From assembly GCA_028819575.1 (NCBI GenBank), contig JAPPLB010000131.1:1-40954 (forward strand): a stretch of DNA of 40,954 bases, written 5' to 3'. Made by a program: the position numbers and the translations under genes. Under the pieces are notes generated by a model. The model did no database searches. It worked only from the letters and a program-made list of their open reading frames with translations, and was not told the DNA's origin. Shown piece by piece: positions 3,327-26,041 of this stretch (the stretch's first letter is position 1; every line of letters starts with the position of its first letter). The stretch is from Bryobacterales bacterium (GTDB taxonomy: Bacteria; Acidobacteriota; Terriglobia; Bryobacterales; UBA6623).

Positions 3327-3355
3327 TTGACACCCACAGTCCGGTTTGGCATACT
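3327..3355 (+). promoter_or_regulatory. Predicted sigma70-type promoter of the oxidoreductase/TonB-receptor operon
   Basis: A perfect TTGACA (3327-3332) is followed after 17 bases by CATACT (3350-3355), a 4/6 match to the -10. It gives a leader of about 75 bases before the GGAGGT ribosome site at 3424-3429. Confidence 0.6.
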
Positions 3356-3438
3356 CCCCCTGCACGGTGGTTTAGTTCAGGCTACGGGATTGTTGGACGG
3401 ACCCGGCTTTGGTCGCCAAGGTCGGAGGTATCTGCACC

Positions 3439-4653: not shown

Positions 4654-4661
4654 GAGACTCT

Positions 4662-5969: not shown

Positions 5970-6008
5970 TGGCCAAGTATTTCCAGCACACTCAGGAGGA
6001 GAGAAGTG

Positions 6009-9308: not shown

Positions 9309-9328
9309 AACCTGAGCACGTTTGAAAG

Positions 9329-9364
9329 GAATGGCTCGGGCTCGCTTCGGTTCCCGAGCCATTC
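9329..9364 (+). terminator. Strong hairpin terminator after the TonB receptor
   Basis: A perfect 12-bp stem, 9329-9340 (GAATGGCTCGGG) with 9353-9364 (CCCGAGCCATTC), encloses a 12-base loop and lies 20 bases beyond the stop codon. Only a weak T-containing tail follows (TTGTCA), so termination may be intrinsic but inefficient. The hairpin could also stabilise the 3' end. Confidence 0.75.
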
Positions 9365-9438
9365 TTGTCAGCATCAGCGCAACCGAGCAGTGAAGGCAAA
9401 GGTGCCATCCGGGGCAGTCCGGCCGATCCGAGCAAGAC

Positions 9439-9451
9439 TATAATCTCAACA
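9439..9451 (+). promoter_or_regulatory. Consensus -10 giving a leaderless transcript
   Basis: A perfect TATAAT at 9439-9444 ends 6 bases before the ATG at 9451, so transcription is expected to start at the ATG itself. No convincing -35 is seen at 17 bases, and there is no Shine-Dalgarno sequence. Confidence 0.55.
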
Positions 9452-11178
9452 TGCGGTTGATGGCGCCGTTGTTCTCGGCGGTGATAGGCGCGGGCTTCAC
9501 ACTGTTCGGGAACTCGATTCCCGCGCCGTTTTTTTCTGATGCCACGGAAACCGCGGGGCTTGTCTTTCAGCACCGGAACTCCAAGACGCCGCGCAAGTAT
9601 CTCCCCGAAACGATGGCGGCGGGTGTCGCCGTTCTCGATGTCAACAACGACGGCTGGATGGATGTGTTCTTTGTGAACGGTGCAAGGCTCACGGTGCCTC
9701 ATGCGGATGGGAAGGAGCCCGACAAATCGGCTCCCGAGTTCTGGAACCGCCTCTTTCGCAACAACCTCGACGGCACATTCAGTGACGTAACGGTCGAATA
9801 CGGCCTCCAGGGCCGTGGCTACGGCATGGGCGTGGCGGCGGGTGACTACGACAACGACGGTGACGTCGATCTCTTCGTCGCGAATTTCGGAACCGGGGAG
9901 CACCGCTCGTCCGTCCTGTATCGCAACGAGTCCGGCAAGAGATACGTCGATGTCACCGAGCAGTCGGGCATCGCGACCACAGGCTGGACCACTAGCGCCG
10001 GTTTCCTGGACTACGATCACGACGGAGATCTGGACCTGTTCGTTTGCCGCTTTGTGAAGTGGAGCTTTGCCGTAGACCACGACTGCCGGCTCGACACTCC
10101 TGCCGGCAGGTCGGCAGGCCGGTCATATTGCCATCCCGATACGTTCGAGCCGACTTCCAATTTTCTTTTTCGCAACAACGGCGATGGGACTTTCACCGAT
10201 GTGAGTGGTCCCACTGGAATCCGGAACGCCGAAGGCAAAGGCCTCGGCGTGGTTTTCGGAGATATCGACGACGACGGTCACATCGACATTTCCGTTGCCA
10301 ACGATTCGGTGCCGCAGTTCCTGTTCCGAAACCAAGGGAACGGAACCTTTTCCGAGATCGCCCTGATGGCGGGAGTCGCTCTCGATGAGGACGGTCAGGA
10401 CTTTGGGGGCATGGGCACCGACTTGGGTGACCTCAACGGCGATGGGCTGCCGGAGATTCTCACGACCACGATCTCTCTTGAGCGCTATGCCTATTACGTC
10501 AACCTCGGCGATGCCCTGTTCGACTACGAAACCGTTCGAAGCACTCTGGGAGCCATTACGCACCCATACACCGGATGGGGAATGAAGTTCTTTGACTTTG
10601 ACAACGACGGCCTGAAAGACGTATTTCTGGCGAACGGACACGTTATGGACAATATCGAGAGCGCGGAACCGTCGCTGCGGTATCTACAGCCTCCTCTGTT
10701 GCTCAAGCACGCCAATGAGCGATTCACCGACGTCTCGAAGCAGGCCGGGCCGATCTTCAGGCGCCCTTGGGCGAGCCGCGGAGCGGCCGTCGGCGATCTC
10801 GACAATGACGGCTATCTGGACATCGTCGTCGCCAATTGCGGAGGGCCGGCCTACCTGGCCAAAAATCAAAGTCACCGCCGCGCGACCCACAACTGGCTTG
10901 GACTCAAGCTGCAAGGGTGTGCGAGCAATCGTGACGGCATCGGCGCGGAGATCGTGCTCGACACGCCGGACGGCAACAAGCAGTATGCAACGGCTTCGAG
11001 AACAGCCAGTTACCTGTCGTCGCAGGATCCAAGGGTCTTCTTCGGACTTGGTGAGTACACCGAGGTCCCGTCTCTTGTCGTTCGCTGGCCGAGTGGAACG
11101 GAGCAGACCGTTCCTGTCGATCAGATCAACCGAATTATGCTCGTGGAGGAGCCTGGAGAGTCATGTGGAAAAACGTAG
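9451..11178 (+). CDS. CRTAC1-like FG-GAP/ASPIC-UnbV secreted protein 2
   Basis: 575 aa. It has a signal peptide (about 1-25), then seven calcium-type FG-GAP repeats (DVNNDGWMD, DYDNDGDVD, DYDHDGDLD, DIDDDGHID, DLNGDGLPE, DFDNDGLKD, DLDNDGYLD) and a C-terminal ASPIC/UnbV domain (SNRDGIGAEI, YLSSQDPRVFFGLG). It is a paralogue of the 1171-2886 gene with the same blade count and matching C-terminal motifs. ATG 9451 is the only start that keeps the signal peptide; it lacks a ribosome site and lies at the predicted transcription start. The stop overlaps the following hydrolase gene by 16 bases, so the pair is an operon. Enzymatic activity is not known for this family. Confidence 0.88.
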   Translation: MRLMAPLFSAVIGAGFTLFGNSIPAPFFSDATETAGLVFQHRNSKTPRKYLPETMAAGVAVLDVNNDGWMDVFFVNGARLTVPHADGKEPDKSAPEFWNRLFRNNLDGTFSDVTVEYGLQGRGYGMGVAAGDYDNDGDVDLFVANFGTGEHRSSVLYRNESGKRYVDVTEQSGIATTGWTTSAGFLDYDHDGDLDLFVCRFVKWSFAVDHDCRLDTPAGRSAGRSYCHPDTFEPTSNFLFRNNGDGTFTDVSGPTGIRNAEGKGLGVVFGDIDDDGHIDISVANDSVPQFLFRNQGNGTFSEIALMAGVALDEDGQDFGGMGTDLGDLNGDGLPEILTTTISLERYAYYVNLGDALFDYETVRSTLGAITHPYTGWGMKFFDFDNDGLKDVFLANGHVMDNIESAEPSLRYLQPPLLLKHANERFTDVSKQAGPIFRRPWASRGAAVGDLDNDGYLDIVVANCGGPAYLAKNQSHRRATHNWLGLKLQGCASNRDGIGAEIVLDTPDGNKQYATASRTASYLSSQDPRVFFGLGEYTEVPSLVVRWPSGTEQTVPVDQINRIMLVEEPGESCGKT

Positions 11179-13040
11179 GATACGGGAATCAGCTACTATC
11201 GCTCCTGGGGATCATGATCGAGCGGGAACTCTGGATTCCCACAACGCGGTTCGGTGTCTTGGTTGCACTGCTCTGTGCATCTATGGTCAACAGTCCTGCC
11301 GCCGATCCGGATTGGCATAAGATGCTCTCTCAACCCATTTACCACGGCAAACTGCGATTCGGCGTCGAGGAGATTCCGGCAAGGGACGGCGTCATCATGC
11401 GGGCGATCGTCTATCGGCCGGACGAGCCGGGACGGTTTCCCGTCTTCCTCATCAACACTCCCTACGACAAGATGAGGGAACCGTACCTGGAATGGGGACA
11501 GTACTTTGCCGAGCGGGGCTACGCCTCCGTCATCGCCGATGTGCGGGGCCGCTATGACTCCGACGGCGATAACTACCTCTATGGTCCGCACGACGGCCCC
11601 GACCTCTACGACATTCAGTCCTGGGCGGCCGCGCAACCCTGGTCAACCGGCAAGATCGGAACGACCGGGGGTTCGTATCTCGGTTTTGTGCAACTGGAAG
11701 CAGCCCTGGAAGGTAATCCGAACTACACCTGCATGGTGCCGATGGTAAGCCCGGACGATCATTACGACAATGTTTACCCCTCCGGGGCCTTCCAGCTTTC
11801 AAACAGCGTCAACCTGGCCTGGATCCTTGGCAAGCATACCAACCAGAATCCCGACGCCGTGCTGGATTGGGACAAGGTCTACCGGCATCTGCCCCTCAGG
11901 AACCTTGACCGGGAAGCCTTGGGACTACGAGCGGAGTTCTGGTCCGATTGGCTGGACCATCCGACGCGCGATGACTACTGGCCCGGACCCGGCCACCGAA
12001 TCGCGCCGGGCAAGAACGGGCCCGGCAAATACCATCGCATCAAGGTGCCCTCCTACAACATCTCCGGTTGGTATGACCAGGTGAGCCAGGCCACGATCAA
12101 CAACTATCTGGGAATGGTCCGTCACGGTCCCGAAAATTTGCGCGACAAGCATAAGTTGCTCATGGGACCTTGGACCCACGGTGTCAGCTTCGGGGTGACA
12201 CGCAAGCAGGGCGATCTCACTTTCCCGCCCGAGTCCGCTCCCGATATGAGAAAGATCGTCTTGCGCTGGATGGACTACTGGCTCAAGGGGACACAGAACG
12301 GTTTCCTGGATGAACCTCCCGTCCGGATCTATGTGATGGGAGCGGATGAGTGGCGCTTGGAGAACGAGTGGCCCTTGGCCCGTACGGAATACACCAGGTA
12401 CTACCTCCACAGTCAGGGCCGGGCCAATAGCCTTCTCGGGGATGGCTCCCTGTCCACCGAGCAGCCCGGAGCCGAACCGCCCGATCGTTTCACCTATGAC
12501 CCCGACAATCCCGTCCCTACTCTCGGCGGCAATGTTTCGATGAAGCCGGGATCCTCAGGTCCCTATGATCAGACGGCGATCGAACGGCGGGACGATGTCC
12601 TCGTCTACACGACGCCCCCTCTTTCGGAAGATCTGGAGGTAACCGGACCGGTCTTCATCGAGCTGTACGCATCGACCGACGCCACGGATACGGACTTCAC
12701 CGGCAAGCTGGTGGATGTTTGGCCGAACGGCTATGCGCAGATCTTGTTGGAAGGCGTCATCCGCGCTCGTTACCGGGAATCGTTCGAGCGGCAGAAGCTC
12801 GTGACGCCGGGAAAGATCGAGAAGTATCTGATCGATCTTTGGTCCACGAGCAATCTATTCCGTCGGGGACACCGAATTCGGGTCGAGATCTCGAGTAGCA
12901 ATTTCCCCAAGTACGACCGCAACCCGAACACCGGCCACCCGATCGGAGAAGATGCCGAACGGCAGGTGGCGCATCAAACCATCTATCACGATTCGGAGCA
13001 TCTGTCTCACATCCTCTTACCGGTCATCCCTGCGAAATAG
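11163..13040 (+). CDS. CocE/NonD-family (S15) serine hydrolase, short form
   Basis: 625 aa alpha/beta hydrolase of the X-Pro dipeptidyl-peptidase/cocaine-esterase family. Visible are the nucleophile elbow GGSYLG (Ser171), a likely catalytic Asp in SGWYDQ, a His in GPWTHG, and a C-terminal PepX_C jelly-roll (about 420-620, with HRIRVEISSSNFP). The N terminus has a hydrophobic export segment (about 28-45), so it is probably periplasmic. GGAG at 11155-11158 precedes ATG 11163; an alternative ATG at 11214 would shorten the protein by 17 residues and give a cleaner signal peptide. Members cleave esters, amides or proline peptides; the substrate is unknown. It lacks the extra C-terminal domain of the two paralogues at 21545 and 23747. 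Confidence 0.85.
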   Translation: MWKNVGYGNQLLSLLGIMIERELWIPTTRFGVLVALLCASMVNSPAADPDWHKMLSQPIYHGKLRFGVEEIPARDGVIMRAIVYRPDEPGRFPVFLINTPYDKMREPYLEWGQYFAERGYASVIADVRGRYDSDGDNYLYGPHDGPDLYDIQSWAAAQPWSTGKIGTTGGSYLGFVQLEAALEGNPNYTCMVPMVSPDDHYDNVYPSGAFQLSNSVNLAWILGKHTNQNPDAVLDWDKVYRHLPLRNLDREALGLRAEFWSDWLDHPTRDDYWPGPGHRIAPGKNGPGKYHRIKVPSYNISGWYDQVSQATINNYLGMVRHGPENLRDKHKLLMGPWTHGVSFGVTRKQGDLTFPPESAPDMRKIVLRWMDYWLKGTQNGFLDEPPVRIYVMGADEWRLENEWPLARTEYTRYYLHSQGRANSLLGDGSLSTEQPGAEPPDRFTYDPDNPVPTLGGNVSMKPGSSGPYDQTAIERRDDVLVYTTPPLSEDLEVTGPVFIELYASTDATDTDFTGKLVDVWPNGYAQILLEGVIRARYRESFERQKLVTPGKIEKYLIDLWSTSNLFRRGHRIRVEISSSNFPKYDRNPNTGHPIGEDAERQVAHQTIYHDSEHLSHILLPVIPAK

Positions 13041-13082
13041 GCGAGGACGCGAGATACCTTCATTCAGGGCAGCCGGGGGCGC

Positions 13083-14462
13083 TCAACGAGGCTGGACATC
13101 CACCAATAGCCGTATCCCCCTCGGGACACGCTTGGGCAGACTTTGGTGGATCTTCAGTTCCTCGGCGGCAAGCTCGCGGCTTCCCGTGCGCCTGTACAGA
13201 GTAGCAAGCACATAGTGCGCTCGATCATGTTGCGGGTCCAAACGAATGGCTTTCTTCAACTCCTTGATCGCCTGGTCATATTTTTCTTCCCATTGGAACG
13301 CTTTGCCGAGGGTGAAATGCCGGTCGCTCACTCCTGGTTCGAGCTCTACAGCTTTCTGCAGTGCTTCGATTGCCGGCAACATCGACGTGCGGTTGTCCGT
13401 CGCCAGCCTTAAGTGTCCCATCCCCTTCAGGTAATATCCCGTCGCGCTGGCCTGCCGGATGCCGATGAACTGCTCGCCGAGCGCGATCAATGCGTTGCCG
13501 TCCCGATCCTGCTCATAGCATTCGCCGAGCGCCTTGTATGCCGGCTCGAATTCCTTGTCAACCGCAAGAATCTGCTTGAGCACTTCGATCCCCGCCGGTC
13601 TTCGCTCCTCCAGAATGTAAGCCAGCGCCAGCAAGAACTTGACATGCACCGAAGAAGGAAACCTTTCACGGCCCACTTCGAACATGCTAAGCGCCGCAGA
13701 GAAGGCACGGTAGTGAATCAGAAACTGCCCGATATCTACTAGGAACTGCTCGTTGTCCGGCTGTAACTCCAGCGCTCTTTGCAGATGCTGAAGTGCCGAT
13801 TCCGGCTGGTTGAGCTTGAACTCGATTTGTCCGAACAGGTTGTTCCAAGCGCCGCTGTCTTTCAAAGCCGGCTGAACAGCCGATAGAACGGTCTTCGCTT
13901 CGGCGTACTGCTCTCGATCAAACATCTTGTGGGCGTTTTCGGCGGCGCGGGATGCCGCCGCCTGCCAGGCGGCTTCAATTTCCGGATCCCGCTGTGCGAT
14001 TTTCCGGGCTTGGCTCAAGGCCTGAAAGGATTCCTCGTTCTTTCGCAGGCTCAGAAGAGTCGATCCCACGTTGAACCAGACCAACTCGTTGCTGGCGTTG
14101 AGCCGGGCGGCCTGCTGGAAAGCCGGCAGCGCTTTGTTCGGGTTCCCGGTTTCGATCAAATTAGCGCCGAGGTTGTTCCACGCCTGCCAGTCTTGGGGAC
14201 GAAGCTTCGCGACTTGCTCGAACGACGCGGTAGCACGGTCCGGGCGGCCCAAACGTGTCTCGCAAATCGCGATGGCCAGATGGGCCTGTGCGATTTCATG
14301 GTTCCCGGCAACAGCCGCTGCCAGTTCTCGCAGTGAGGACTCGCAGTCGCCTGCTCGGAAATGATCCAGACCACGCTGCAGGGCTGCTTCCCAGCCGGCC
14401 CCGAACAGCGGCGGGGCCGTAAGCAACAAGGCAAGCAGTGTCCTCATCCGAGTGAGCCTCAT
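13083..14462 (-). CDS. Secreted TPR-repeat protein 2
   Basis: About 459 aa from ATG 14462; an ATG at 14447 with GAGG 9 bases upstream is an equally good start. A signal peptide (MRTLLALLLTAPPLFGAG) is followed by about a dozen 34-residue TPR motifs to the C terminus (for example AWNNLGANLIETGNPNKAL, ALQHLQRALELQPDNEQ, HFTLGKAFQWEEKYDQAI). It probably works as a periplasmic protein-binding scaffold and is the counterpart of the TPR protein at 230-1174. It converges with the hydrolase gene (42 bases between stops) and lies 126 bases downstream of the ceramidase-like gene on the same strand, so it may be the last gene of that operon. Confidence 0.85.
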   Translation of the reverse strand: MRLTRMRTLLALLLTAPPLFGAGWEAALQRGLDHFRAGDCESSLRELAAAVAGNHEIAQAHLAIAICETRLGRPDRATASFEQVAKLRPQDWQAWNNLGANLIETGNPNKALPAFQQAARLNASNELVWFNVGSTLLSLRKNEESFQALSQARKIAQRDPEIEAAWQAAASRAAENAHKMFDREQYAEAKTVLSAVQPALKDSGAWNNLFGQIEFKLNQPESALQHLQRALELQPDNEQFLVDIGQFLIHYRAFSAALSMFEVGRERFPSSVHVKFLLALAYILEERRPAGIEVLKQILAVDKEFEPAYKALGECYEQDRDGNALIALGEQFIGIRQASATGYYLKGMGHLRLATDNRTSMLPAIEALQKAVELEPGVSDRHFTLGKAFQWEEKYDQAIKELKKAIRLDPQHDRAHYVLATLYRRTGSRELAAEELKIHQSLPKRVPRGIRLLVDVQPR

Positions 14463-14588
14463 GAGCAGACACCAGCCTGCATGATTATCATCTGGCGCAC
14501 TTCTCCCAAGCGCTTGCGGAGGACATTGTCCCGTGTGCGAACTGCCCATGAAATTCCGAACATCGCTCCATGGATGTCTGCGGACTTA

Positions 14589-15995
14589 CTATTGTGTCGA
14601 AAGCTCCTCGAGCAATGAGACCGCAGTGTCCTCTAGCTCCTTTGCCGAACCCTTGCCAAAAAGAGAGATGCCAGGCTCATAACCGCCTTCATCCAGCGCT
14701 TCGTCGGTTGGAAGGTAGCACAGAAAGTAACCGCCCATGGAATATCCACAAAACATGGTCGCGGGCAAGGGTGATCGCCTCTTGACCTCGATCCCGATTT
14801 CACAGAAGGGTTCCAGCGGCGTCAGGACAAGAGCCGCTTCACCCAAAGTGATGACCTGAACGGGAATCTCGACCGCTCCCGGCTCCGAGAGCCGTTGCGC
14901 ACGTTGAAGCTGTAGCGCCGCGCGCTTGACTTGGTAGTGGAAGCGTTTGATTTCGTCCCCGTCACCATCCTGATGGGCAAGCCGAAGCTGTTTATCGAGC
15001 TCCTGATACCCACTTTCCAGCTTCTCGACCGGCTCAACCGGGTGTGGTATGAGTCGCGCGACTCTACTCCCGCTACGGATCGAAATGGGCGTTTCTTGTT
15101 CGTGCCGCCACTTGTAGATGCCCAGCGGAGCTCCTGATTCGAGAACATTTTGGAACTCGAGGCTGCCCCCGGCTGTACGAATGCCTTCAGCGACCCGGCA
15201 GACCTCATATCCAAGATGCGCTCCGGCGCGTCGATAGACCGCCAGGTCGCCGGTGAAGCCTTCCACCGGTCCGATGTCGCCCGTCGCTCCCTGGAGAAAC
15301 AGGCTCAGGCCCCCCAGGTTGCGCTCGACAACTCGTTTCATGGCCCCGGGATAATCCGGCGTGATCTTGTCGTTCTCATGCCCCATGATGGTCGGATGCA
15401 TCGCGAAGTTCACCACAGTCGCTATCGGCATGCCGTCCGTATCGTCAATGCGGAAAACGACCACCTCCTGATCGACCGGGCCTGCCGGGTTGTTGCCGGT
15501 GATGATTCGGCCGTTGTCCAAATGTTGACGGCGGTTGATTCCGATGTCGGATCGTCCCTTGCCCCACCCCAAACTCGCGGGGCGTGCGTTCCTCTTTGCC
15601 TCGCCGGCCGACTGAGCCGCCCTCGCCGCAAACGAGCTCTGGTATTCGAGAAACACCTCTCGGCCCTGTTCCATCCATGGCGTGTCATGCAACGGGACGG
15701 CAGAATGGGTGTGCGTCCACGTAACAAGCACTCTGTCGAGCGAGACTGAGGATTCCCTCGCCGCCGCCTGCCGTACTTCGAGAGCCAACCCCTCGGTCAG
15801 CGTCGCCACGTCCAGGTTGAGGAGAACGACCTCAGAGGCGCCGTCCGATAGATAGAGCGCCGTCGAGTACAGCTCCATGTCGATTCCCGCGGCGACTTGA
15901 TGCGTCGCGGCCCCCCAGTTCAAATGGGGTGACCCGACCGGAGGAGTGATATCCGAACGGCCTGCGCCGGCAGTGATGGTTCTGGCTCCGCTCAT
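14589..15995 (-). CDS. Neutral/alkaline ceramidase N-domain-like hydrolase
   Basis: 468 aa, resembling the N-terminal catalytic domain of neutral ceramidases: a start of GAGRSDITPPVG, a probable zinc-binding THTHSAVP (about residues 100-107), NFAMHPTIMG and QGATGDIGP. Neutral ceramidases hydrolyse an N-acyl amide with zinc. This protein is shorter (no C-terminal immunoglobulin-like domain) and has no signal peptide, so it is probably cytosolic and may act on a different amide. Its ATG overlaps the hyuB stop by 4 bases (ATGA). Being coupled to HyuAB and a symporter, it more likely processes a small imported amide than ceramide; that is inference. Confidence 0.75.
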   Translation of the reverse strand: MSGARTITAGAGRSDITPPVGSPHLNWGAATHQVAAGIDMELYSTALYLSDGASEVVLLNLDVATLTEGLALEVRQAAARESSVSLDRVLVTWTHTHSAVPLHDTPWMEQGREVFLEYQSSFAARAAQSAGEAKRNARPASLGWGKGRSDIGINRRQHLDNGRIITGNNPAGPVDQEVVVFRIDDTDGMPIATVVNFAMHPTIMGHENDKITPDYPGAMKRVVERNLGGLSLFLQGATGDIGPVEGFTGDLAVYRRAGAHLGYEVCRVAEGIRTAGGSLEFQNVLESGAPLGIYKWRHEQETPISIRSGSRVARLIPHPVEPVEKLESGYQELDKQLRLAHQDGDGDEIKRFHYQVKRAALQLQRAQRLSEPGAVEIPVQVITLGEAALVLTPLEPFCEIGIEVKRRSPLPATMFCGYSMGGYFLCYLPTDEALDEGGYEPGISLFGKGSAKELEDTAVSLLEELSTQ

Positions 15996-17752
15996 CGATT
16001 ATCGTCTCTGAGTTTCCTGGTCGCTTCAAAGTCAACGCAACGATGCACGGTATCCACGACCACCCGGTAAACCTCTCGGGCGCGCGCGGCGGTCACTTTG
16101 CCGTCGAGAACATCGGCAAGCACGGCTTCCGGATCTCGGTCGTGAGACGGTCCGTACCCTCCGCCTCCGGGTGTGCGGTAGCTGATCACCGAGTCCGACG
16201 CGAGATGCAGCGTAATTTTGGACGGCAGCTCCCTGGCTTCGCCGTCCGGATCGAGTACGTAACGGGAACTGGCCCCGTTCCCTCCTCCGAACAATCCCCA
16301 GGGCGCATACTTGCGATTGTCAGAAAACACCGTGAGCGTGGCCTCGTGGTCAGGAAATTTCCAATCGCGCCGGATGCCGAGGCCTCCTCGATAGCGGCCC
16401 GCACCTTCCGAATCAGGTATGAGCTCATAGCGAGTAATCTGGAAAGGCAAGTTGTTTTCGGTTTCTTCGACGGCCGAGTTCTCGGTGTTCTGGATGTGGC
16501 TTTGAACGGCGTCCAAGCCGTCTTTAGTAGGGCGCGCGCCGTATCCTCCCGCCATCGTTTCGATGAAAGTGTAGTACTCCCCACTGCGCGGGTCTTCCCC
16601 TCCGCACGCCATGTGGCAGTTGATACTCTTTGTGCTGGCCATCACCCGGTCCGGCATCGCCTCCGAAAAGGCGCGGAAGGTGAGGTCGCACAGGCGCATG
16701 GCGACCTCCCAGCCGCCTACCACACCGACAGGAGCTTTTGCATTGACGACGGTCCCCTCTGGTGCGCTGACGTCGATCAAGCGGTAAAAGCCCTCGTTCG
16801 TTGGGATGTTGGGGTCGATCAGGCACTTGATGACGTACGCCAGTGGGGAATAGGTTTGCGTCAGCGTTGCGTTCATCGGCGAGCTTCTTTGCGGCGCCGA
16901 ACCGGTCAGATCGTAGGAGACGCGCCCTCCCTGGATTCTGGCGGTCACCGCCAGCTTGATGGGCTCGTCGGTGATGCCGTCGTCGTCGAGATAACATTCC
17001 GAGTGGTACACGCCCTCGGGCAGTTTTGCAATTTCCTGGCGAGACCACCGCTCGGTGTAATCGATCAGCTCGTCCACGAACGTTTCAATCGTTTCCTCTC
17101 CGAACTTGCGAATGATTTCACCCATTCGCCGTTGACCTAATAGAGAGGAAGCGATCTGCGCTCGAAAGTCTCCCGCTGACTGTCGCGGGGAGCGGATGTT
17201 GGCCAGGATCACTTGAAAGAGATCCTCGACGATCTTCCCGCGCGAAACGAGTTTTGCCGGAGGCAGGATGATGCCTTCCTGATAAAGTTCCGTCGATATG
17301 CAATAGCCACCAGGAGCGTAGCCTCCGATGTCCACGTGATGGGCCAGCGCGGCCACAAACCCTTGCAGCTTCTCATCACCAAAATAGGGGGCGATCACTA
17401 CGATATCGTTCAGGTGGACTCCCCCGCGGTAAGCATGATTCATGACCAGTGCGTCGCCCGGATCGAGCTTGTCCACACCGTACTGACGGATGGCATTGGG
17501 CACCATCCGCGACATCGACGCCAAGTGAACTGGCTGTGAGAACGACTGGGCGATGATTCGCAGCTTGGCGTCGAATAGCGCGCACGAGAAATCCGCTCGA
17601 GTCTTGATGTTTGTGGAATAGGCCGACTTTCGAAGGGCCGCCCCCATCTCGTCGGCAGCGGCATCAAAAGCACTCCGAATCACCTCGAAACGGATCGGGT
17701 CCATCTCCAGCTTCGATCGCTGCTGGTCTTCTTGGCTGGCGACGGTTGCCAT
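15992..17752 (-). CDS. hyuB: Hydantoinase B/oxoprolinase-family subunit
   Basis: 586 aa from ATG 17752, which overlaps the hyuA stop by one base (TGATG); an in-frame TTG directly before it is less likely. Full-length HyuB family features are present: DFSCALFDA near the N terminus, GDALVMNHAYRGGVHLND, HHVDIGGYAPGGY, and a Gly-rich end (YRTPGGGGYGP). HyuB pairs with HyuA to hydrolyse cyclic amide or imide rings (N-methylhydantoin, 5-oxoproline) with ATP, and homologues also carboxylate acetone or acetophenone, so the substrate is open. Strict overlaps with both neighbours point to one polycistronic message. Confidence 0.88.
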   Translation of the reverse strand: MATVASQEDQQRSKLEMDPIRFEVIRSAFDAAADEMGAALRKSAYSTNIKTRADFSCALFDAKLRIIAQSFSQPVHLASMSRMVPNAIRQYGVDKLDPGDALVMNHAYRGGVHLNDIVVIAPYFGDEKLQGFVAALAHHVDIGGYAPGGYCISTELYQEGIILPPAKLVSRGKIVEDLFQVILANIRSPRQSAGDFRAQIASSLLGQRRMGEIIRKFGEETIETFVDELIDYTERWSRQEIAKLPEGVYHSECYLDDDGITDEPIKLAVTARIQGGRVSYDLTGSAPQRSSPMNATLTQTYSPLAYVIKCLIDPNIPTNEGFYRLIDVSAPEGTVVNAKAPVGVVGGWEVAMRLCDLTFRAFSEAMPDRVMASTKSINCHMACGGEDPRSGEYYTFIETMAGGYGARPTKDGLDAVQSHIQNTENSAVEETENNLPFQITRYELIPDSEGAGRYRGGLGIRRDWKFPDHEATLTVFSDNRKYAPWGLFGGGNGASSRYVLDPDGEARELPSKITLHLASDSVISYRTPGGGGYGPSHDRDPEAVLADVLDGKVTAARAREVYRVVVDTVHRCVDFEATRKLRDDNR

Positions 17753-19839
17753 CAATGTGACTCCTGAATCATCAGATTTCCGTACTCGTCCACCGCTGCG
17801 TGGCAGCCCGGATGAATCACGGTCGTCGAATCCTTTTCTTCGACGATCGCCGGCCCGGGAACGGAATTACCACATCGAAGACGGTAACGGTCGTAGATCT
17901 TGCAGGCAACGCGCTTGCCGGCTTCGGAAAAATAGACCTGCCGCACGCCTTTGACAGCCTCGGCGCTGTCTTGCCCTCCGGTCGCGAGCCGCCGCAACTG
18001 AGGTCGCCGAATGCGGCCCAGCGCCGTTAGCCGCAGGTTTACCACTTCTGTCGGTTCGGAAGTTTCGGCGTAGCCGTAGGCCCGCTGATGAGCTTCGAAG
18101 AATGCGGCATTAAGCTTGCCTTCGTCGCCCGGTTTCAAATCTCGAGACGGAGCTTCCACCCGCAGTTCATAAGACTGGCCGACGTAGCGCATGTCTACAG
18201 ATCGCGAGAAGGAGATATCGGCCTCCGAAATGCCTTCTGAACGCAGCACGTCTCGAGCCTGTCGTTCGAAGCTCTGATACTCCTGGGTCAGCTTGTCGAA
18301 ATCGATTGCCTCCATCGGCCGGATATGGGCTTGGACGTAATCATGCTTGATGTCCGTCACCAAGAGTCCAAGCGCCGACGTCACACCCGGGCTCATCGGG
18401 ATCAGCACCTTCGGGATATGTAGCTCCCGAGCTAGAGCATTGGCATGCATCGGCCCCGCACCGCCGTAGGCGACCAGCATGAAATCCCGCGGGTCAAAAC
18501 CCCGTTGCACTGAAATCAACCGGATGGCTCCGACCATGTTGGCGTTGGCGATCTCGATGATGCCCCGCGCCGCCTCGACCGGTTGGAGATCGAGCTTTCG
18601 GGCAAGAAACCCGATCGCGTTCACGGCCAGATCGGGATTCAGTTTGTGCTCTCCTCCAAGGAAGTATTCAGGATCTATGCGGCCCAGGAAAAGATTCGCG
18701 TCGGTGATGGTGGGTTCGGTCTGACCCTTGCCGTAACAGGCCGGACCCGGATCGGCTCCTCCGCTCTGCGGTCCGACCCTCAGTCCTCCGCCCGGATCTA
18801 CCCAAGCGATTGATCCGCCGCCCGCGCCGATCTCGACCAGATCCACCACCGGCGTGCGCACCGGGTAGCCTGCCGAGCGGTTCTCGGAGACTGCCGCGCT
18901 GCCGACTTCGAAATGGGGAACGATCTTAGGAACGCCTCCCTCCACCAAGCCCGCTTTCGCGGTAGTGCCTCCCATGTCGAAGCTGATGAGATTGTGCGGT
19001 CCCAGCAGACTCCCCAGATGAGTGGCCGCCGCAACCCCCGCAGCCGGACCGGACTCGATAAGATTGACGGGCTGTTGCCGCGCCACCTGCGACGACATGA
19101 TGCCGCCGGCTGAAGTCATCAAGTGCAGCCCGGCGCGGAGATCGATCTCCATAAGCCGCCGTTCGAGGCGCTCGAGATAACGGCTGACGATCGGCATTAC
19201 CAAGGCATTGATTGCCGTAGTGCTTGCGCGAAAGTACTCCCGCATTTCAGGACACAGGTCCGAGGAAAGGCTTACGAACACCCCCGGCATCTCTTCGCGG
19301 ACAATCTCGCCCACCCGCTTCTCATGAACCGGATTCACGTACGAGTGCAGCAGACAGACAACGACGGCTTCGACACCTTCCCGCTTGATGCGACGCGCCA
19401 CCTCGCGGACCTTCTTCTCGTCCAGCGGCGCGAGAACATCTCCGGCGAAATCGAGCCGCTCAGGCACTTCGAAACAGAGCGCTCGAGGGATCAACGGCTT
19501 CGGCTTGTCACAGAAGATGTCGTAGAGCTTGGGCCGGATCTGCCGCGCGATTTCAAAAACATCGCGGAAACCCTTGGTGGCGATCAAGGCGGCCTTGGCA
19601 CCCTTGCCTTCGATGATGGTATTGGTGGCAACCGTCGTACCGTGCACGTTGTACGTGACACTACGCGCGGGGACATTCGATTCCTCGAGAATTCGCTCGA
19701 TGACGTTAATGAAGCCCACGGACGGGTCGCTCGGTGTGCTCGACATCTTCACCAAACGAATCTCGCCTGTCGATTCGTTCATCATCACGGCATCAGTGAA
19801 AGTACCCCCGATGTCGACACCCAATCTGAAAGTGCTCAT
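17752..19839 (-). CDS. hyuA: Hydantoinase A/oxoprolinase-family subunit
   Basis: 695 aa, the usual length. The N-terminal Hydant_A_N domain starts at once (LGVDIGGTFTDAVM). The ASKHA-type ATPase domain shows HGTTVATNTIIEGKGA, SFDMGGTTAKAGLVEGG and YGGAGPMHANALA, and a C-terminal domain follows. It is the ATP-dependent partner of HyuB. Cytoplasmic: no signal peptide. It lies 12 bases downstream of the symporter and overlaps hyuB, so transport and ring-opening genes are transcribed together. Acetone carboxylase alpha/beta subunits are related, but no gamma-subunit gene is present, which favours a hydantoinase/oxoprolinase-type activity. Confidence 0.9.
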   Translation of the reverse strand: MSTFRLGVDIGGTFTDAVMMNESTGEIRLVKMSSTPSDPSVGFINVIERILEESNVPARSVTYNVHGTTVATNTIIEGKGAKAALIATKGFRDVFEIARQIRPKLYDIFCDKPKPLIPRALCFEVPERLDFAGDVLAPLDEKKVREVARRIKREGVEAVVVCLLHSYVNPVHEKRVGEIVREEMPGVFVSLSSDLCPEMREYFRASTTAINALVMPIVSRYLERLERRLMEIDLRAGLHLMTSAGGIMSSQVARQQPVNLIESGPAAGVAAATHLGSLLGPHNLISFDMGGTTAKAGLVEGGVPKIVPHFEVGSAAVSENRSAGYPVRTPVVDLVEIGAGGGSIAWVDPGGGLRVGPQSGGADPGPACYGKGQTEPTITDANLFLGRIDPEYFLGGEHKLNPDLAVNAIGFLARKLDLQPVEAARGIIEIANANMVGAIRLISVQRGFDPRDFMLVAYGGAGPMHANALARELHIPKVLIPMSPGVTSALGLLVTDIKHDYVQAHIRPMEAIDFDKLTQEYQSFERQARDVLRSEGISEADISFSRSVDMRYVGQSYELRVEAPSRDLKPGDEGKLNAAFFEAHQRAYGYAETSEPTEVVNLRLTALGRIRRPQLRRLATGGQDSAEAVKGVRQVYFSEAGKRVACKIYDRYRLRCGNSVPGPAIVEEKDSTTVIHPGCHAAVDEYGNLMIQESH

Positions 19840-19851
19840 TCTGAAACTTTT

Positions 19852-21285
19852 CTAGGCAGGAATGTCCGCGCCGGTCGTCCGGCGCGTTTCGACCCAGGTT
19901 CCCACGCACAGCGTAAGAACGGCAATGGGGAAACCAACCAGGATCGGGTCGAGCCGCCAAATGATCACGACCGATCCGACTTCCTGAATAGAGCCGAAAA
20001 TTTGCAACGCGGCAACGGTCGTGGCTCCCAATATCATCGCGGCCAAGACCGTTTTCGGGGCTCTCCTGACAGCCGGGAACATCACGAGAGCTACCAGAGC
20101 CGGCGCCACCGAAGAACCCATAATTCGTCCGCCCAGCCAAAACAGCTCGATCAGCAGTGGAACGAGATAGTAAATCAAGGCCGCCAAGAGTCCGATCAAT
20201 ATGACGTTGACACGGTAGACCCAGAGTCGGCGGCGCACGCTGGAATTCGGATCGATGAAGCGCTGGTAAATATCGAGTGTGAAGTTCGAAGCCAGGGTGT
20301 TGATCGTCGAGGATAGTGTCGACATGCTGGCCGCAAGAACACTCACGACGATCAAGGTTGCCATCTGACCGCTTGCTGAGTCAAAAGCCACTTGGACAAA
20401 GGTATCTTCTGCTGCTATTGCGCTGTCGTGGATCGCCACGCCGAGCAAACCGATCAGAGGCGGAACCATATACCAAAGGATTCCGAGAACTCCTCCATAC
20501 AGGAAACCCTTCCTTGCTGTTTCCGGGCTGGACGCGGCGAATCCTCGCTGGATAATTCCCTGATATCCACAAGTGACGGCGATACCGATAACAATCCACC
20601 CCAGGACCTGCAAGCCGCCCGCTCGTCCGAACTGGTCAAGAAGTATCGGGTCAACGCGGCTGCCGAGCTCCGAGAGGCCGCCTAATTGCCCAATGCCCGA
20701 GAACAGCAACCCCACGGTGCCGGCCACAATGATGACGAACTGAATAGAGTCAGTCACCAGGACGGCCCACATGCCTCCGAGGAAGACATAGATCACCGTG
20801 ACACCCAGCCAAAGAGCTTGCGACTCGATAGCGGAGATGTCCAGCAAGGCCATCGTCACGACGGTCAGAGCCCCAAGAGTGCCAGCCGTGACACCCAAAT
20901 CACGAAGGATGACCAGTACGAGAGCTAGCAACCGATATGCTGGACCAAAAAAACGCTCGAACAGCTCGGGTATTGTTATTATTCCGGTTTCTCTAAGCCT
21001 GGGCACTACATAAAATCCGATCCACACCGTAACAAACAGGAAGGAGCCGCCGGCCCAATAGCTGCTTAATCCAAAATCCCTGCCGAGGGCGGAATTGCCT
21101 ACCAACGTCGTGCCATTGATCCACGTCGCTGCCACGGAAAAAGCGATCAACCAGACTCCCGAGCGGCGCCCGGCCACCGCCATATCCTCGATGTTTGTTA
21201 CTTTTCCCCTCCCCAGGATGCCGATCCCCAGCATCAAGATGAGATAAAAGGCGATCAGCCACCAGGATGCTTCCAGATTCTCCAC
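19852..21285 (-). CDS. Sodium:solute symporter (SSS family)
   Basis: 477 aa with about 13 hydrophobic helices. N-terminal motifs are typical (EDMAVAGRRSG, AATWINGTTLVG). The eighth/ninth-helix region ASMSTLSSTINTLASNF resembles the Na2-site serine/threonine stretch of the SSS family. It should import a solute with sodium across the inner membrane. The GTG start at 21285 lies 3 bases after the stop of the 57-aa membrane protein, so the two are translationally coupled. The next gene is hyuA, making a cyclic amide or amino-acid derivative the probable cargo. Confidence 0.88.
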   Translation of the reverse strand: MENLEASWWLIAFYLILMLGIGILGRGKVTNIEDMAVAGRRSGVWLIAFSVAATWINGTTLVGNSALGRDFGLSSYWAGGSFLFVTVWIGFYVVPRLRETGIITIPELFERFFGPAYRLLALVLVILRDLGVTAGTLGALTVVTMALLDISAIESQALWLGVTVIYVFLGGMWAVLVTDSIQFVIIVAGTVGLLFSGIGQLGGLSELGSRVDPILLDQFGRAGGLQVLGWIVIGIAVTCGYQGIIQRGFAASSPETARKGFLYGGVLGILWYMVPPLIGLLGVAIHDSAIAAEDTFVQVAFDSASGQMATLIVVSVLAASMSTLSSTINTLASNFTLDIYQRFIDPNSSVRRRLWVYRVNVILIGLLAALIYYLVPLLIELFWLGGRIMGSSVAPALVALVMFPAVRRAPKTVLAAMILGATTVAALQIFGSIQEVGSVVIIWRLDPILVGFPIAVLTLCVGTWVETRRTTGADIPA

Positions 21286-21288
21286 CAG

Positions 21289-21462
21289 TTATCCCCGTAG
21301 TAGTGCTCCCCAGATCCAGATGTAAAGAAAGCCGCCCAACATCAGCAGAATCAGCGCCAGCCAAGGATTGAACCTGGGAGAAGCCACCCGGTCCATCAGG
21401 TCGAGCTCGCTGTCCTCGTGTCGGCCGCTGTCGGCAGACCGGGTAGAGTCGCTTGGTTTCAA
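21289..21462 (-). CDS. 57-aa single-helix membrane protein, putative symporter accessory subunit
   Basis: 57 codons from TTG 21462, with AAGGAG 8 bases upstream. A charged, Ser/Asp/Arg-rich N-terminal half is followed by one clear transmembrane helix (NPWLALILLMLGGFLYIWIW, about residues 32-51) and a short basic end. It ends 3 bases before the symporter start. Small one- or two-helix proteins are known in front of some SSS symporters (for example DUF4212-type small subunits), and the NPW-start-of-helix layout is reminiscent of them, but I cannot assign it to a named family. Its function as a transporter partner is inferred from coupling. Confidence 0.65.
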   Translation of the reverse strand: MKPSDSTRSADSGRHEDSELDLMDRVASPRFNPWLALILLMLGGFLYIWIWGALLRG

Positions 21463-21544
21463 TGCAGTTTCTCCTTGTGGTCGGGCAACGGCTGAAGAAC
21501 AAAGAGGACTGTTCTACAATAGCGCGCTAGGAGGAATGATATTG
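21463..21544. promoter_or_regulatory. Divergent promoter region between the HyuAB operon and the S15 hydrolase pair
   Basis: Only 82 bases separate the divergent genes. TACAAT at 21515-21520 is a good -10 for the plus-strand hydrolase gene, and the overlapping complement TATTGT could serve the minus-strand operon. GGAGG (21530-21534) is the ribosome site of the gene at 21545. No convincing -35 is seen. Overlapping divergent promoters would allow joint control of both units. Confidence 0.45.
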
Positions 21545-23650
21545 ATGCTTGCTCAACATACGGTGCGGTTCATTCTGATTTCCTCGCTCACGGCAACAGT
21601 ATTGGGTGCTGTCTCACAACCGCGGTACAAAGTCAAGATCGACCGAACCGCACGGCCCGTAATGCGGGACGGTGTGGAGCTTGGCGCGGTTGTCGTGCGG
21701 CCTGACGCGGAGGGTCAATTCCCCGCAATCATGAACTACACGCCGTATCGCACTTTGAGCCATGTCAAATCCTCGTACGACGAGGAGAAGTATAGCAACA
21801 CCATTCATGGGCCAAGTTATTTCGCGGAACGCGGCTATGCGGTTGTCTATTACGACGTCCGTGGCACCGGCAACTCCGGAGGTTCAAGCCAGGACATCTA
21901 CTCCGAGAAGGAGCAGAACGACGCCTACGACATGGTCGAATGGATTGCAGCCCAACTCTGGTGCGATGGCGGGGTCGGCATGTGGGGCTACTCCTATGGC
22001 GGAGTGGTGCAGTGGCAGGTCGGCATTAAAAACCCGCCGCATCTCAAGACATTGGTCGTGGGCTCCTCCAACGATGATGTATATCTCGACTGGGTCTACC
22101 CGGGCGGCTCGCTACGACCGTACATGTTCGACACCTATTCCCCTCTGATGGCGGCTTTCAATTTTGCGCCGCCCGATATCGACCTTGTCGGTCAGAAGTG
22201 GACCGAAATTTGGGAAGAGCGCCTCGCCAATAATCGCCCCTGGGGCATTGGCTATATTACTCATCCGGTTCACGGCTCCTACTGGACCGACCGTTCGCTG
22301 CAACCCGACTACAGCCGTGTGAAGGTCCCCACGCTGCTCTGGAGTGGCTGGGCGGACGTCTACCCCACTCCGATCCTTCGCGCCTTCGCCAATCTCGAAG
22401 TTCCCAAGAAAGCCCTGGTAGGACCCTGGGGGCACTGGTGGCCGGAGATGGCCGTGCCCGGCCCACGAATCGACGGTCGACACGAGCTGCTCAAATGGTA
22501 CGACCACTGGCTCAAGGGGATGGATACCGGTGTGATGGATGAGCCTCCCGTGACCCTATTCGTCAAGGAGTACAAGGAACCGGAACCCGCCATGTATATC
22601 GATGACAACGGGTTTTGGCGTTTTGAGAATGAGTGGCCGCCGGCGCGCAACGAGAACACGCCGATGTATCTGCACGCCGATGGACTGCTGAGTGAGGACT
22701 CCTCCGCTTCGGCTCCCGAAGAGGCCGACCAGTACACCTACGATCCCACTGTCGGAGCGACATCCGGTATTTACTGGGGAGGGGGTGTCCTTCCCTGGGG
22801 CATGGCCATTGACCAACGCACTGACGAAGCATTGTCGTTGACCTACACGACACCGCCTCTTGAAGAAGACTTGGAAACGATAGGCGAGCCGATCGCTGTC
22901 TTGTACGTCAGCTCATCTGCGACCAGCGCCTATTTCCATGTCAAACTGACCGATGTTGCACCGGACGGCACTTCGAAGTGGATTGCGGACGAAGGACTGC
23001 TGGCTTCGCACCGAAATTCTCATGCCGTCCCTGAACCCCTTGAGCCTGGCGAAATTTACGAGCTGCGCATCCCTCTCAAATTCGTAGCCTATGTGTTCCC
23101 CAAGGGGCATCGTATCCGAGTGGACATCGCCAGTGCTGACTTCCAGAATGCCTGGCCGGTTGCGGAAAAGGCTGTCAACAAGATCCATCGTGGCGGCCGA
23201 AACCCGTCATATGTCGTCTTGCCCATTACGCCAGCTCAGGACCCGAAGCTGCCGACGCCCGAATTCAAACCCTCGCCGCGTCCTGCACCCAAGCTGGAGG
23301 ATCTGAATACCGTAAAGCATGAGATCACCCGTGACTTGGTCAGCGACACCGTCACGGTTCACTTGATGGCGCAGAGGAATGGGAAAAGTGATGACGGCCG
23401 CAGGCAGACCGGGCGGTACATCTCCTCCAATTACACCGTTTCAAAGGCCAATCCGGCGGAAGCCTCGATGCGGGCCGGATGCAGGTTGACTCTGAACGGC
23501 CCGGAGGGAGAGATCATCGTCGAGTCCAGCGAAACACTGGTCAGCGACATTACCTCGTTCCGGTTCCTGACCCAAGTCGAGGTGACCGTCCAAGGTAAGC
23601 CGCACTTCAACAAGAGTTGGCGTGTGTCCGTTCCGCGCAGGCTTAACTGA
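21545..23650 (+). CDS. CocE/NonD-family (S15) hydrolase, long form 1
   Basis: 701 aa from ATG 21545, 10 bases after GGAGG. A signal peptide (about 1-25) leads to an alpha/beta hydrolase core with DVRGTGNSGG, nucleophile elbow GYSYGG (Ser150), Asp in SGWADVY and His in GPWGHWWPE. A PepX_C jelly-roll follows, then a further domain of about 135 residues after KPSPRPAPKLED, ending FNKSWRVSVPRRLN. The enzyme should be periplasmic or secreted and cut an ester, amide or X-Pro bond. It is the closest relative of the next gene, with the same active-site position and C-terminal extension, so they look like a tandem duplication. It is divergent from the HyuAB/symporter operon. Confidence 0.85.
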   Translation: MLAQHTVRFILISSLTATVLGAVSQPRYKVKIDRTARPVMRDGVELGAVVVRPDAEGQFPAIMNYTPYRTLSHVKSSYDEEKYSNTIHGPSYFAERGYAVVYYDVRGTGNSGGSSQDIYSEKEQNDAYDMVEWIAAQLWCDGGVGMWGYSYGGVVQWQVGIKNPPHLKTLVVGSSNDDVYLDWVYPGGSLRPYMFDTYSPLMAAFNFAPPDIDLVGQKWTEIWEERLANNRPWGIGYITHPVHGSYWTDRSLQPDYSRVKVPTLLWSGWADVYPTPILRAFANLEVPKKALVGPWGHWWPEMAVPGPRIDGRHELLKWYDHWLKGMDTGVMDEPPVTLFVKEYKEPEPAMYIDDNGFWRFENEWPPARNENTPMYLHADGLLSEDSSASAPEEADQYTYDPTVGATSGIYWGGGVLPWGMAIDQRTDEALSLTYTTPPLEEDLETIGEPIAVLYVSSSATSAYFHVKLTDVAPDGTSKWIADEGLLASHRNSHAVPEPLEPGEIYELRIPLKFVAYVFPKGHRIRVDIASADFQNAWPVAEKAVNKIHRGGRNPSYVVLPITPAQDPKLPTPEFKPSPRPAPKLEDLNTVKHEITRDLVSDTVTVHLMAQRNGKSDDGRRQTGRYISSNYTVSKANPAEASMRAGCRLTLNGPEGEIIVESSETLVSDITSFRFLTQVEVTVQGKPHFNKSWRVSVPRRLN

Positions 23651-23746
23651 ACCAACGCCGGTCGAAGTCTGCCTACCTTACCGTCTTCGAGAGGACACAA
23701 CAGCCCGGTCAAGACGATCTTCCAATGCACAATGGGGAATAAAGAT

Positions 23747-25834
23747 ATGTCGGGCCGGGCAACGCTCCGCCTCATCGCAACTGTCTTTGCCACAATCACG
23801 ATCACCATGACCACCCAGGCCGCTGTCTCTGAAGCGAAATACAAGGTAAAGATCATCCCCGACCTTCGTGTGCCGATGCGCGATGGAGTGGAGTTGGCCG
23901 TCAAGATCACACGCCCTGATGCCGAAGGACGGTTCCCGGCGATCATGGAATACAACCCCTACCGCCGTATCGCCAAGCCACTCCCGGACTACAACGACGA
24001 GTACCCGCCACCCGTTCCCTACTTGGCTGAGCGCGGGTACGTCATCGTCCAGTTTGATGTCCGCGGCACCGGCAACTCGGGGGGCTACAGTACCGATATC
24101 TATTCCGACGAAGAACGCCAAGATGCCTATGAGATGGTCGAGTGGATCGCCAGGCAGCCCTGGTGCACCGGCAAGGTCGGGATGCTGGGCAAATCCTACA
24201 GCGCGGTCGTGCAATGGCAGGTTGCCGTTCAAAATCCACCTGCCTTGAAGGCCATCATCGTGCGTTCGGCCAACCACGATGTCTACACCGACTGGACCAA
24301 CCCGGGCGGCGCCATCCGACCCTACATGTTTGAGAGCTACGGCCCCTTGATGACGGCCTACAACTTCGCCCCCCCTGACATCGACATCGTCGGCGCCAAG
24401 TGGTCGGAGATCTGGCGGGAACGCCTGGACGAGAGCGAACCATGGAGCATCGGTTACATCGAGAACATCCTCCACGGCCCTTACTGGCAGCGGCGCTCGT
24501 TGCAGCCGGGCTACGACCGCGTCAAGTGCGCCGTATTCGTGGTCGGCGGATGGGCGGACTGGTACGCAACGCCTCTCTTGAAGGCTTTTGCAAACCTCAA
24601 CGTCCCCAAGAAGGCCTGGGTCGGACCCTGGGGCCATTACTACCCCGAAGAAAAGTTGGCCCTCCCCGGCCCGCGAGTGGATGGCCGCTACGAGTACTTG
24701 AAGTGGTTTGATTACTGGCTCAAGGACCTTGACACGGGTGTGATGGACGAGCCGCCCGTGACTCTCTTCATCCGCAAATACAAGGAACCGGCACCGATCT
24801 ACCTCGAAGAAAACGGTTTCTGGCGCAACGAGAACACATGGCCGCTCGCCCGGGCGAACAATACCCCGATGTACTTCCAGTCTGACTGGGAGCTGGGGAC
24901 GGAGGCACCCGAAGAGGCCAGTGATACCTACGACAGTTATAAGTACCATCCTGCCGTGGGTATCGCAGCAGGCAGGCACGGCAGGGGAAACATCACTCCC
25001 TGGGCCATGCCTCTCGATCAGCGAATCGATGAGGCATATTCACTCAGTTACACGACGGCGCCGCTGGAAGAAGACACAGAGGTCACGGGAGAACCTGAGG
25101 CGACGCTGTACGTCTCGTCCTCCGCTGACACCGCATACTTCGCTGTCAAGCTGTGCGATGTTGCTCCGGATGGCGCCTCCAAGCTCGTCACCGACGGTGG
25201 ATTACTGGCGACTCACCGCGATTCTCACACCGACCCCAAGGCGCTCGATCCGGGTCAAGTCTACGAACTGAAGTTTGAACTGAAATCGACGGCCTACGTC
25301 TTCGAAAAGGGTCACCGCATTCGCGTGAACGTCACCAGTTCGGACTTCCAGAACTCTTGGCCGGCCGGCAAGCCGGCGGTAAATGCTCTTTACCGGGACG
25401 CCCGGCAGCCCTCGCACCTGACACTTCCGATCGTACCGGAGCAGAATCCGAAACTGCCTGTGCCCGGCTTCAAGCCGTCACCGCATCCGAACCCGAAACT
25501 CGAGGACGTGCCGCGTCCCGAGCATACTGTCACGCAGGACCTCGTCAATCTCTCGACAACCAGCAGCTTCAGCAGCCCGTCGGGCACGCCGGTCAGAGGA
25601 GTCAACCGGTCGAGTTTCACGGTCTCACACAGAGATCCCGCCGAGGCTGTTATCCGATCCAGCTACGAATTTCCTGTTCCGCTTCCCGGTTCCAAGGTGA
25701 ACGTCAGCGCCCAGTCCACGCTCGTCAGTGACAAAGCAGCTTATCACCATATGGTCGAAGTCGTTATCACGGTGAACGGAATGCGGCACTTCAATAAAAG
25801 CTGGTCCGTCACAGTCCCCCGAAAGCTCAACTGA
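23747..25834 (+). CDS. CocE/NonD-family (S15) hydrolase, long form 2
   Basis: 695 aa from ATG 23747 (GGGGA at 23734-23738, 8 bases upstream; an ATG at 23732 is possible). It has a signal peptide, a core with DVRGTGNSGG, nucleophile elbow GKSYSA (Ser150), Asp in GGWADWY, His in GPWGHYYPE, PepX_C, and the same extra C-terminal domain ending FNKSWSVTVPRKLN. Many segments are identical to the preceding gene, but the elbow differs (GKSYSA against GYSYGG), so substrate choice may have diverged. It starts 96 bases after its paralogue with no terminator between, hence probably co-transcribed. Confidence 0.85.
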   Translation: MSGRATLRLIATVFATITITMTTQAAVSEAKYKVKIIPDLRVPMRDGVELAVKITRPDAEGRFPAIMEYNPYRRIAKPLPDYNDEYPPPVPYLAERGYVIVQFDVRGTGNSGGYSTDIYSDEERQDAYEMVEWIARQPWCTGKVGMLGKSYSAVVQWQVAVQNPPALKAIIVRSANHDVYTDWTNPGGAIRPYMFESYGPLMTAYNFAPPDIDIVGAKWSEIWRERLDESEPWSIGYIENILHGPYWQRRSLQPGYDRVKCAVFVVGGWADWYATPLLKAFANLNVPKKAWVGPWGHYYPEEKLALPGPRVDGRYEYLKWFDYWLKDLDTGVMDEPPVTLFIRKYKEPAPIYLEENGFWRNENTWPLARANNTPMYFQSDWELGTEAPEEASDTYDSYKYHPAVGIAAGRHGRGNITPWAMPLDQRIDEAYSLSYTTAPLEEDTEVTGEPEATLYVSSSADTAYFAVKLCDVAPDGASKLVTDGGLLATHRDSHTDPKALDPGQVYELKFELKSTAYVFEKGHRIRVNVTSSDFQNSWPAGKPAVNALYRDARQPSHLTLPIVPEQNPKLPVPGFKPSPHPNPKLEDVPRPEHTVTQDLVNLSTTSSFSSPSGTPVRGVNRSSFTVSHRDPAEAVIRSSYEFPVPLPGSKVNVSAQSTLVSDKAAYHHMVEVVITVNGMRHFNKSWSVTVPRKLN

Positions 25835-25978: not shown

Positions 25979-26007
25979 TTGATGCCCACGCGGTATAGCG
26001 GTATAAT
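25979..26007 (+). promoter_or_regulatory. Predicted promoter of the DUF3500 gene
   Basis: TTGATG (25979-25984), a 17-base spacer and a perfect TATAAT (26002-26007) lie upstream of the GGAGGA ribosome site at 26031-26036. Confidence 0.65.
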
Positions 26008-26041
26008 TGACCGAGACTTCACCCCGGATCGGAGGATTTCC

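Follow-up and report, generated by a model that had tools for sequence, protein, structure and literature searches.

The 40,954-nucleotide contig JAPPLB010000131.1 of an uncultured Bryobacterales bacterium (Acidobacteriota; assembly GCA_028819575.1), which as a whole we call the window, carries between positions 14589 and 21462 five minus-strand genes for a small membrane protein, an SSF sodium:solute symporter, HyuA- and HyuB-type hydrolase subunits and a ceramidase-like zinc hydrolase, with genes for S15/CocE-type hydrolases on both flanks. We read this locus, with a probability of about 0.6, as one for the catabolism of a small cyclic amide of the lactam, hydantoin or imide class, which probably derives from an amino acid. 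The core formed by HyuAB, SSF and S15 is a conserved Acidobacteriota locus that has apparently so far gone undescribed. Only at the level of the genus has a ceramidase-like enzyme joined that core, and the evidence that it functions in the locus is good but indirect. As originally predicted, the ORF (open reading frame) coordinates give five minus-strand genes that overlap or are separated by 3-12 bp, and an S15 pair that diverges from the same 82-bp region, with the S15a ATG at 21545. The features are as follows.

21289-21462, minus strand: small membrane protein, 57 residues, single-pass, TTG start with AAGGAG upstream
19852-21285, minus strand: SSF sodium:solute symporter (PF00474), 3-bp gap to the small-protein ORF
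17752-19839, minus strand: HyuA-type ATP-binding subunit (PF05378, PF01968, PF19278), 12-bp gap to SSF
15992-17752, minus strand: HyuB-type metal-binding hydrolase subunit (PF02538), overlapping the HyuA stop; ORF open to TTG 17755
14589-15995, minus strand: ceramidase-like zinc hydrolase, 468 residues, catalytic domain only (PF04734), overlapping the HyuB stop
21463-21544: 82-bp intergenic region from which the operon and S15a diverge
21545-23650, plus strand: S15a, S15/CocE-type hydrolase with secreted-type N-terminus (PF02129, PF08530, TIGR00976)
23732-25834, plus strand: S15b, second S15/CocE-type hydrolase, in tandem with S15a (Pfam and NCBIfam)
11163-13040, plus strand: third S15/CocE-type hydrolase, on the opposite flank (Pfam)

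All gene assignments of the locus are borne out by Pfam except that of the 57-residue protein, for which neither Pfam nor NCBIfam has a match. HyuA scores above gathering with both PF05378 (204.7 bits) and PF01968 (317.2 bits), also matches PF19278, and contains the ATP motifs DIGGTFTD, DMGGT and GADPGP. HyuB exceeds the gathering score of PF02538 (591.3 bits, 1.8e-177) and keeps the Asp-His-Asp-His metal tetrad of CapB, which is essential in caprolactamase (PMC8453981). The best match in the PDB is, for both subunits, N-methylhydantoinase 7hk5 (507 bits for HyuA, 339 bits for HyuB), followed by caprolactamase 6yra (404 and 219 bits). The caprolactamase equivalog models NF050156 and NF050157 are nevertheless missed, at 591.5 and 299.3 bits against 1000-bit cut-offs, no Cys pair occupies the HyuB position aligned with the CapB vicinal disulfide Cys410-Cys411, and where HyuB has its fourth metal-ligand His (the counterpart of CapB H124) 7hk5 carries Gln; for these reasons the substrate of HyuAB is not readable from sequence. 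The chemistry of this family is established: HyuA spends ATP to activate the ring amide, and HyuB finishes hydrolysis at the metal; caprolactamase requires bicarbonate. Elsewhere in the same genome, contig C154 holds two HyuB genes with no HyuA (9172-12641), as does its counterpart in genome G002, and contig C19 a solitary HyuA (8321-10420). Near-identical FAD (flavin adenine dinucleotide) oxidase genes lie near both, and these HyuB and HyuA subunits may therefore pair in trans.

The sister species Bryobacterales APA_bin_29 (JAPOOG010000014.1) has the identical gene order from S15b through a TPR gene that adjoins the operon. Codon comparison between the two gives about 0.16-0.32 synonymous (dS) and 0.012-0.065 nonsynonymous (dN) substitutions per site, for dN/dS of about 0.07-0.2; the differences are mostly at third positions and no gene contains a stop. 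This includes the small ORF, which is 88% identical, keeps its TTG start and has a dN of 0.065 and dS of 0.32. The five genes are thus confirmed as real coding sequence and as a real unit under purifying selection. The sister codon aligned to the HyuB TTG at 17755 is CTG, which makes ATG 17752 the likelier HyuB start.

Beyond the genus, the expected conservation of gene order holds for the core alone. We refer below to families within the phylum by f-numbers, to genomes by G-numbers and to their contigs by C-numbers. The nearest HyuA homologues outside the class, at 69-70% identity, belong to families f34 and f42. Within about 17 kb of contig C16, the f34 genome G419 encodes HyuA (69-70% identity), HyuB (77%), SSF (60%) and the small protein (65%), together with an aminotransferase-like gene, an FAD oxidase and three S15 genes, two of which are in tandem and 58-59% identical to S15b. 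The same genes extend over about 22 kb in G659, and the same pieces are split across two short contigs in G638. The FAD oxidase of the f34 locus is 58-61% identical to that on contig C154 of the window genome, and a second HyuB-HyuA pair follows an S15 gene in two f34 loci. In f42, HyuA (70%) and HyuB (72%) are followed by an FAD oxidase, and an S15 gene (56% to S15b) diverges from them. Family f9, from the same class as the window genome, has a HyuB-HyuA-S15-Ser/Thr dehydratase operon, in which the S15 gene overlaps the end of HyuA and abuts the dehydratase; of the window S15 proteins, the third (11163-13040) is the closest to this one. The full five-gene order, including the ceramidase-like gene, is shared only with the sister species, and the claim of conservation has been narrowed to the core accordingly. 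In G304, contig C504 breaks off within an 81%-identical HyuA gene, immediately upstream of which lie genes for an MFS transporter, an FGE-sulfatase-like protein and a beta-lactamase-family protein; the transporter type has therefore been exchanged there and HyuA kept.

S15a and S15b both exceed the TIGR00976 cut-off of 66.3, at 322.7 and 350.4 bits, and S15 genes occur in or beside HyuAB operons in f1, f9, f34 and f42, and more loosely in f6. S15 genes were found within 15 kb of Hyu loci in 4 of 14 cases in this genome and 7 of 20 in G419, against 0.35 expected in each, and in 1 of 2 in G100 (which has only two), although the probabilities attached to this excess are optimistic owing to tandem copies and shared ancestry. 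The predicted functional link between the operon and the S15 genes is thereby supported. The recurrent partner in other classes, which the original prediction did not mention, is a sarcosine-oxidase-type FAD enzyme: among characterised enzymes, those that act on N-methyltryptophan, sarcosine and dimethylglycine (oxidases or dehydrogenases) come nearest to the companion FAD enzymes. Other companions of Hyu loci, namely a Ser/Thr dehydratase, a cyclodeaminase-family protein, aminotransferases and a beta-eliminating lyase, are likewise all amino-acid enzymes. FAD oxidases or deaminating enzymes dependent on pyridoxal phosphate (PLP) as partners fit an amino acid as the end product.

The symporter matches PF00474 with 106.6 bits (gathering 22.8; 1.8e-30) and falls short of the TIGR00813 cut-off, with 129.8 of 184. 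Its subfamily is rare in the order; among 150 genomes, matches at E <= 1e-40 occur only in the two sister species. In f34, another class, orthologues at 60% identity adjoin S15 and FAD oxidase genes near HyuAB, and directly upstream of them lie small-protein homologues of 51-66% identity. The 57-residue protein is accordingly a conserved symporter partner. On contig C92 of the window genome, a 38%-identical SSF paralogue (12453-14006), divergent from a HyuA-HyuB-HyuB-enolase-SSF cluster, ends with an extra helix (LNPYLAIALIL...) that resembles FNPWLALILLM... of the small protein. The idea that the latter is a detached symporter helix was set aside, as the E-values against this C-terminal extension are only 0.06-0.8, which is no more than suggestive.

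Taken together, these observations support the predicted catabolic operon for uptake and ATP-dependent hydrolysis of a cyclic amide, and a pathway can be sketched. The secreted S15 hydrolases would free the substrate outside the cytoplasm, and the symporter with its one-helix partner would, by family, import it with sodium. HyuA would then activate the ring amide with ATP and hand the intermediate on to HyuB, whose metal site, given the motifs and the homology to caprolactamase, 5-oxoprolinase and N-methylhydantoinase, would open the ring. In this genus, the zinc hydrolase, a cytoplasmic enzyme of ceramidase fold, may next cleave the product, which would still be acylated or carbamoylated; FAD or PLP enzymes, instead of or besides it, could finish the conversion to an amino or keto acid. 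Possible substrates include 5-oxoproline, hydantoins and N-acyl amino acids.

The ceramidase-like protein matches PF04734 with 65.6 bits (gathering score 32.1). An AlphaFold2 model built from 67 sequences (mean predicted local distance difference test score, pLDDT, 91.5) superimposes on neutral ceramidase 2zws with a Z score of 36.9 (2.8 A, 368 residues), covering only residues 4-489 of 2zws, that is, the catalytic domain; the C-terminal domain is lacking. Structural hits with Z of 9 or less, regarded as common arrangements, were left unused. The zinc ligands of the Pseudomonas enzyme are H97, H204, E411 and Y448, to which H95, H200, E395 and Y427 correspond here, invariant in 67/67 homologues. 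Pseudomonas R160 is R155 (also 67/67) and Y460 is Y439 (65/67). The motif serine, Ser274 of the Pseudomonas precursor within a GDVSPN-type amidase motif, is replaced by G242, and 63 of the 67 homologues have Gly. The protein begins directly at the domain, with no signal peptide. The predicted zinc amidase-like fold lacking a signal peptide therefore stands in its fold, zinc site and start; amidase activity is conjectural, and these features make a cytoplasmic zinc hydrolase likely.

Whether this enzyme acts after HyuAB is the part of our reading that is most in dispute, and several observations weigh against it or against a single substrate. The f34, f42 and f9 loci have no ceramidase-like gene, and none of 79 ceramidase-like relatives in other genera has HyuA or HyuB within 10 kb, so that this member is dispensable for the core. 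Relatives in SAR202/Dehalococcoidia (Chloroflexota), Verrucomicrobiota and Paenibacillus instead lie near MR/MLE enolases (31/79 loci), thiamine pyrophosphate (TPP) enzymes and dehydratases, all named by sequence reading rather than by a family scan. This suggests that the wider subfamily is concerned with the chemistry of hydroxy or sugar acids and not with amides. Lineages also differ in whether the partner is the Ser/Thr dehydratase, the cyclodeaminase-family protein or the FAD oxidase, and substrates may therefore differ as well; in the NCBIfam scan, moreover, neither HyuA nor HyuB reaches any curated equivalog cut-off. On the other side, the gene overlaps HyuB translationally and is under purifying selection, and a second union exists in the same genome. 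On contig C154, a different ceramidase-like gene overlaps an MFS gene that is followed by the two HyuB genes, an arrangement repeated in the G002 counterpart, and on C154 a sarcosine-type FAD oxidase adjoins this operon. In quick trees the two ceramidase-like genes are not sisters, one grouping with a Paenibacillus protein, and a topology that unites the two is rejected (approximately unbiased test, p 2.9e-20). This second, phylogenetically separate gene with its MFS-HyuB-HyuB neighbours implies that the ceramidase-Hyu partnership arose twice, and two independent unions within the same genome would be difficult to account for if no functional link existed. The predicted role as the next hydrolytic step thus gains from the repeated adjacency and loses from its restriction to this genus.

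We tentatively propose, as a possibility somewhat short of even odds, that the serine-less ceramidase-fold proteins are cytoplasmic amino-acid amidohydrolases that complete the work of HyuAB, by zinc-dependent deacylation or decarbamoylation after ring opening in an S15/SSF-fed locus. It is somewhat unlikely, in our judgement, that the gene is instead a lineage-specific addition acting on some other bond (an ester, lactone or hydroxy-acid amide) outside the HyuAB pathway, as its absence from the syntenic loci of other classes, the replaced serine, and the enolases, TPP enzymes, dihydroxyacid-type dehydratases and SMP-30-like proteins near its relatives would allow; the overlap, the selection and the second union with HyuB speak against this. 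An operon for sphingolipid degradation is extremely improbable. The PF04734 match and the fold are all that it would explain, and the protein, which lacks the secretion signal, the C-terminal domain and the motif serine and so is not a neutral ceramidase, scores 30.5 bits against the 1200-bit cut-off of the neutral ceramidase equivalog NF041649. Its partners are amide and amino-acid enzymes. Ceramide degradation was rejected on these domain, motif and cut-off grounds.

Two more specific substrates compete with the general proposal of an amino-acid-derived cyclic amide. Were an N-methylhydantoin-type ring degraded, HyuAB would yield N-carbamoyl-sarcosine, the zinc enzyme would decarbamoylate it and the FAD oxidase would oxidise sarcosine. 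The known N-carbamoylsarcosine amidase belongs to the isochorismatase family, and there is no clear member of that family close to the Hyu genes, so that a creatinine route through such an amidase was discarded. HyuB also has His where 7hk5 has Gln, and it is hard to see what S15 hydrolases would do in the breakdown of creatinine. Despite the nearest PDB relative of both subunits being an N-methylhydantoinase, the recurrence of sarcosine-type oxidases beside HyuAB and a creatinine/N-methylhydantoin route already proposed for sponge microbiomes (PMC6742649), we consider this substrate quite unlikely. Distinctly improbable is a 5-oxoprolinase that salvages pyroglutamate freed from peptides by the S15 hydrolases. 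HyuAB does belong to the same superfamily and the S15 partners are of peptidase type, and a gamma-glutamyltranspeptidase gene (3190-4800 of the stretch read there) lies inside the f34 locus of G659. That gene was not seen in the other f34 loci read, including the stretches of G419; the PDB matches are to N-methylhydantoinase and caprolactamase, with no bona fide 5-oxoprolinase structure among them, and glutamate would require no further hydrolase.

The remaining genes around the locus are listed here.

13083-14549, minus strand: TPR protein adjoining the operon, kept in the sister species
9451-11178: FG-GAP/ASPIC-UnbV protein flanking the locus
6006-9308: large carboxypeptidase-regulatory/TonB-type outer membrane protein (identity by sequence reading)
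25979-27181: DUF3500 protein flanking the locus

The TonB-type, FG-GAP/ASPIC-UnbV and DUF3500 flanks lend the locus the look of a utilisation island, and TPR and ASPIC genes adjoin HyuA in an f34 locus too. A promoter and terminator scan of the locus gave nothing above shuffled background, and no sigma-70-like site in the 82-bp region.

HyuA/HyuB pairs are very common and are mostly labelled '5-oxoprolinase' or 'N-methylhydantoinase' out of habit, and a neighbourhood conserved over several Acidobacteriota classes offers a concrete lead on what one HyuAB subclade acts on. The ceramidase-like member comes from a family known for sphingolipid enzymes, within which it belongs to a large branch that is uncharacterised; since it has paired with HyuB repeatedly, a non-lipid activity can be tested directly. 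If the proposal is true, the locus would represent a new two-hydrolase route, with ATP-driven ring opening followed by zinc-dependent deacylation or decarbamoylation.

In the open-licence literature, an incomplete set, no paper was found that pairs a hydantoinase with a ceramidase, or with CocE, SSF or sarcosine oxidase; the papers searched likewise hold no description of CocE/NonD (S15) hydrolases, whose TIGR00976 cut-off is exceeded here, physically linked to HyuAB. The closest known systems compare as follows. The CapAB caprolactamase of Pseudomonas jessenii (PMC8453981, PDB 6yra) shares the two-subunit HyuA/HyuB architecture, the ATP motifs and the metal tetrad, and differs in its vicinal Cys pair, in its operon partners and in model scores that the window proteins fall far under. 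N-methylhydantoinase (PDB 7hk5 series), although nearest in the PDB to both subunits, consists of one 1288-residue chain with Gln for the fourth metal-ligand His, whereas the window encodes two subunits and keeps the His. Neutral ceramidase (2zws, 4wgk; PF04734, NF041649) shares the catalytic-domain fold (Z 34.6-36.9), the four zinc ligands, R160 and Y460, and is set apart by its 646 residues against 468, its C-terminal domain, its signal peptide and its motif Ser in place of Gly. The theme is a familiar one, unlike the exact gene combination.

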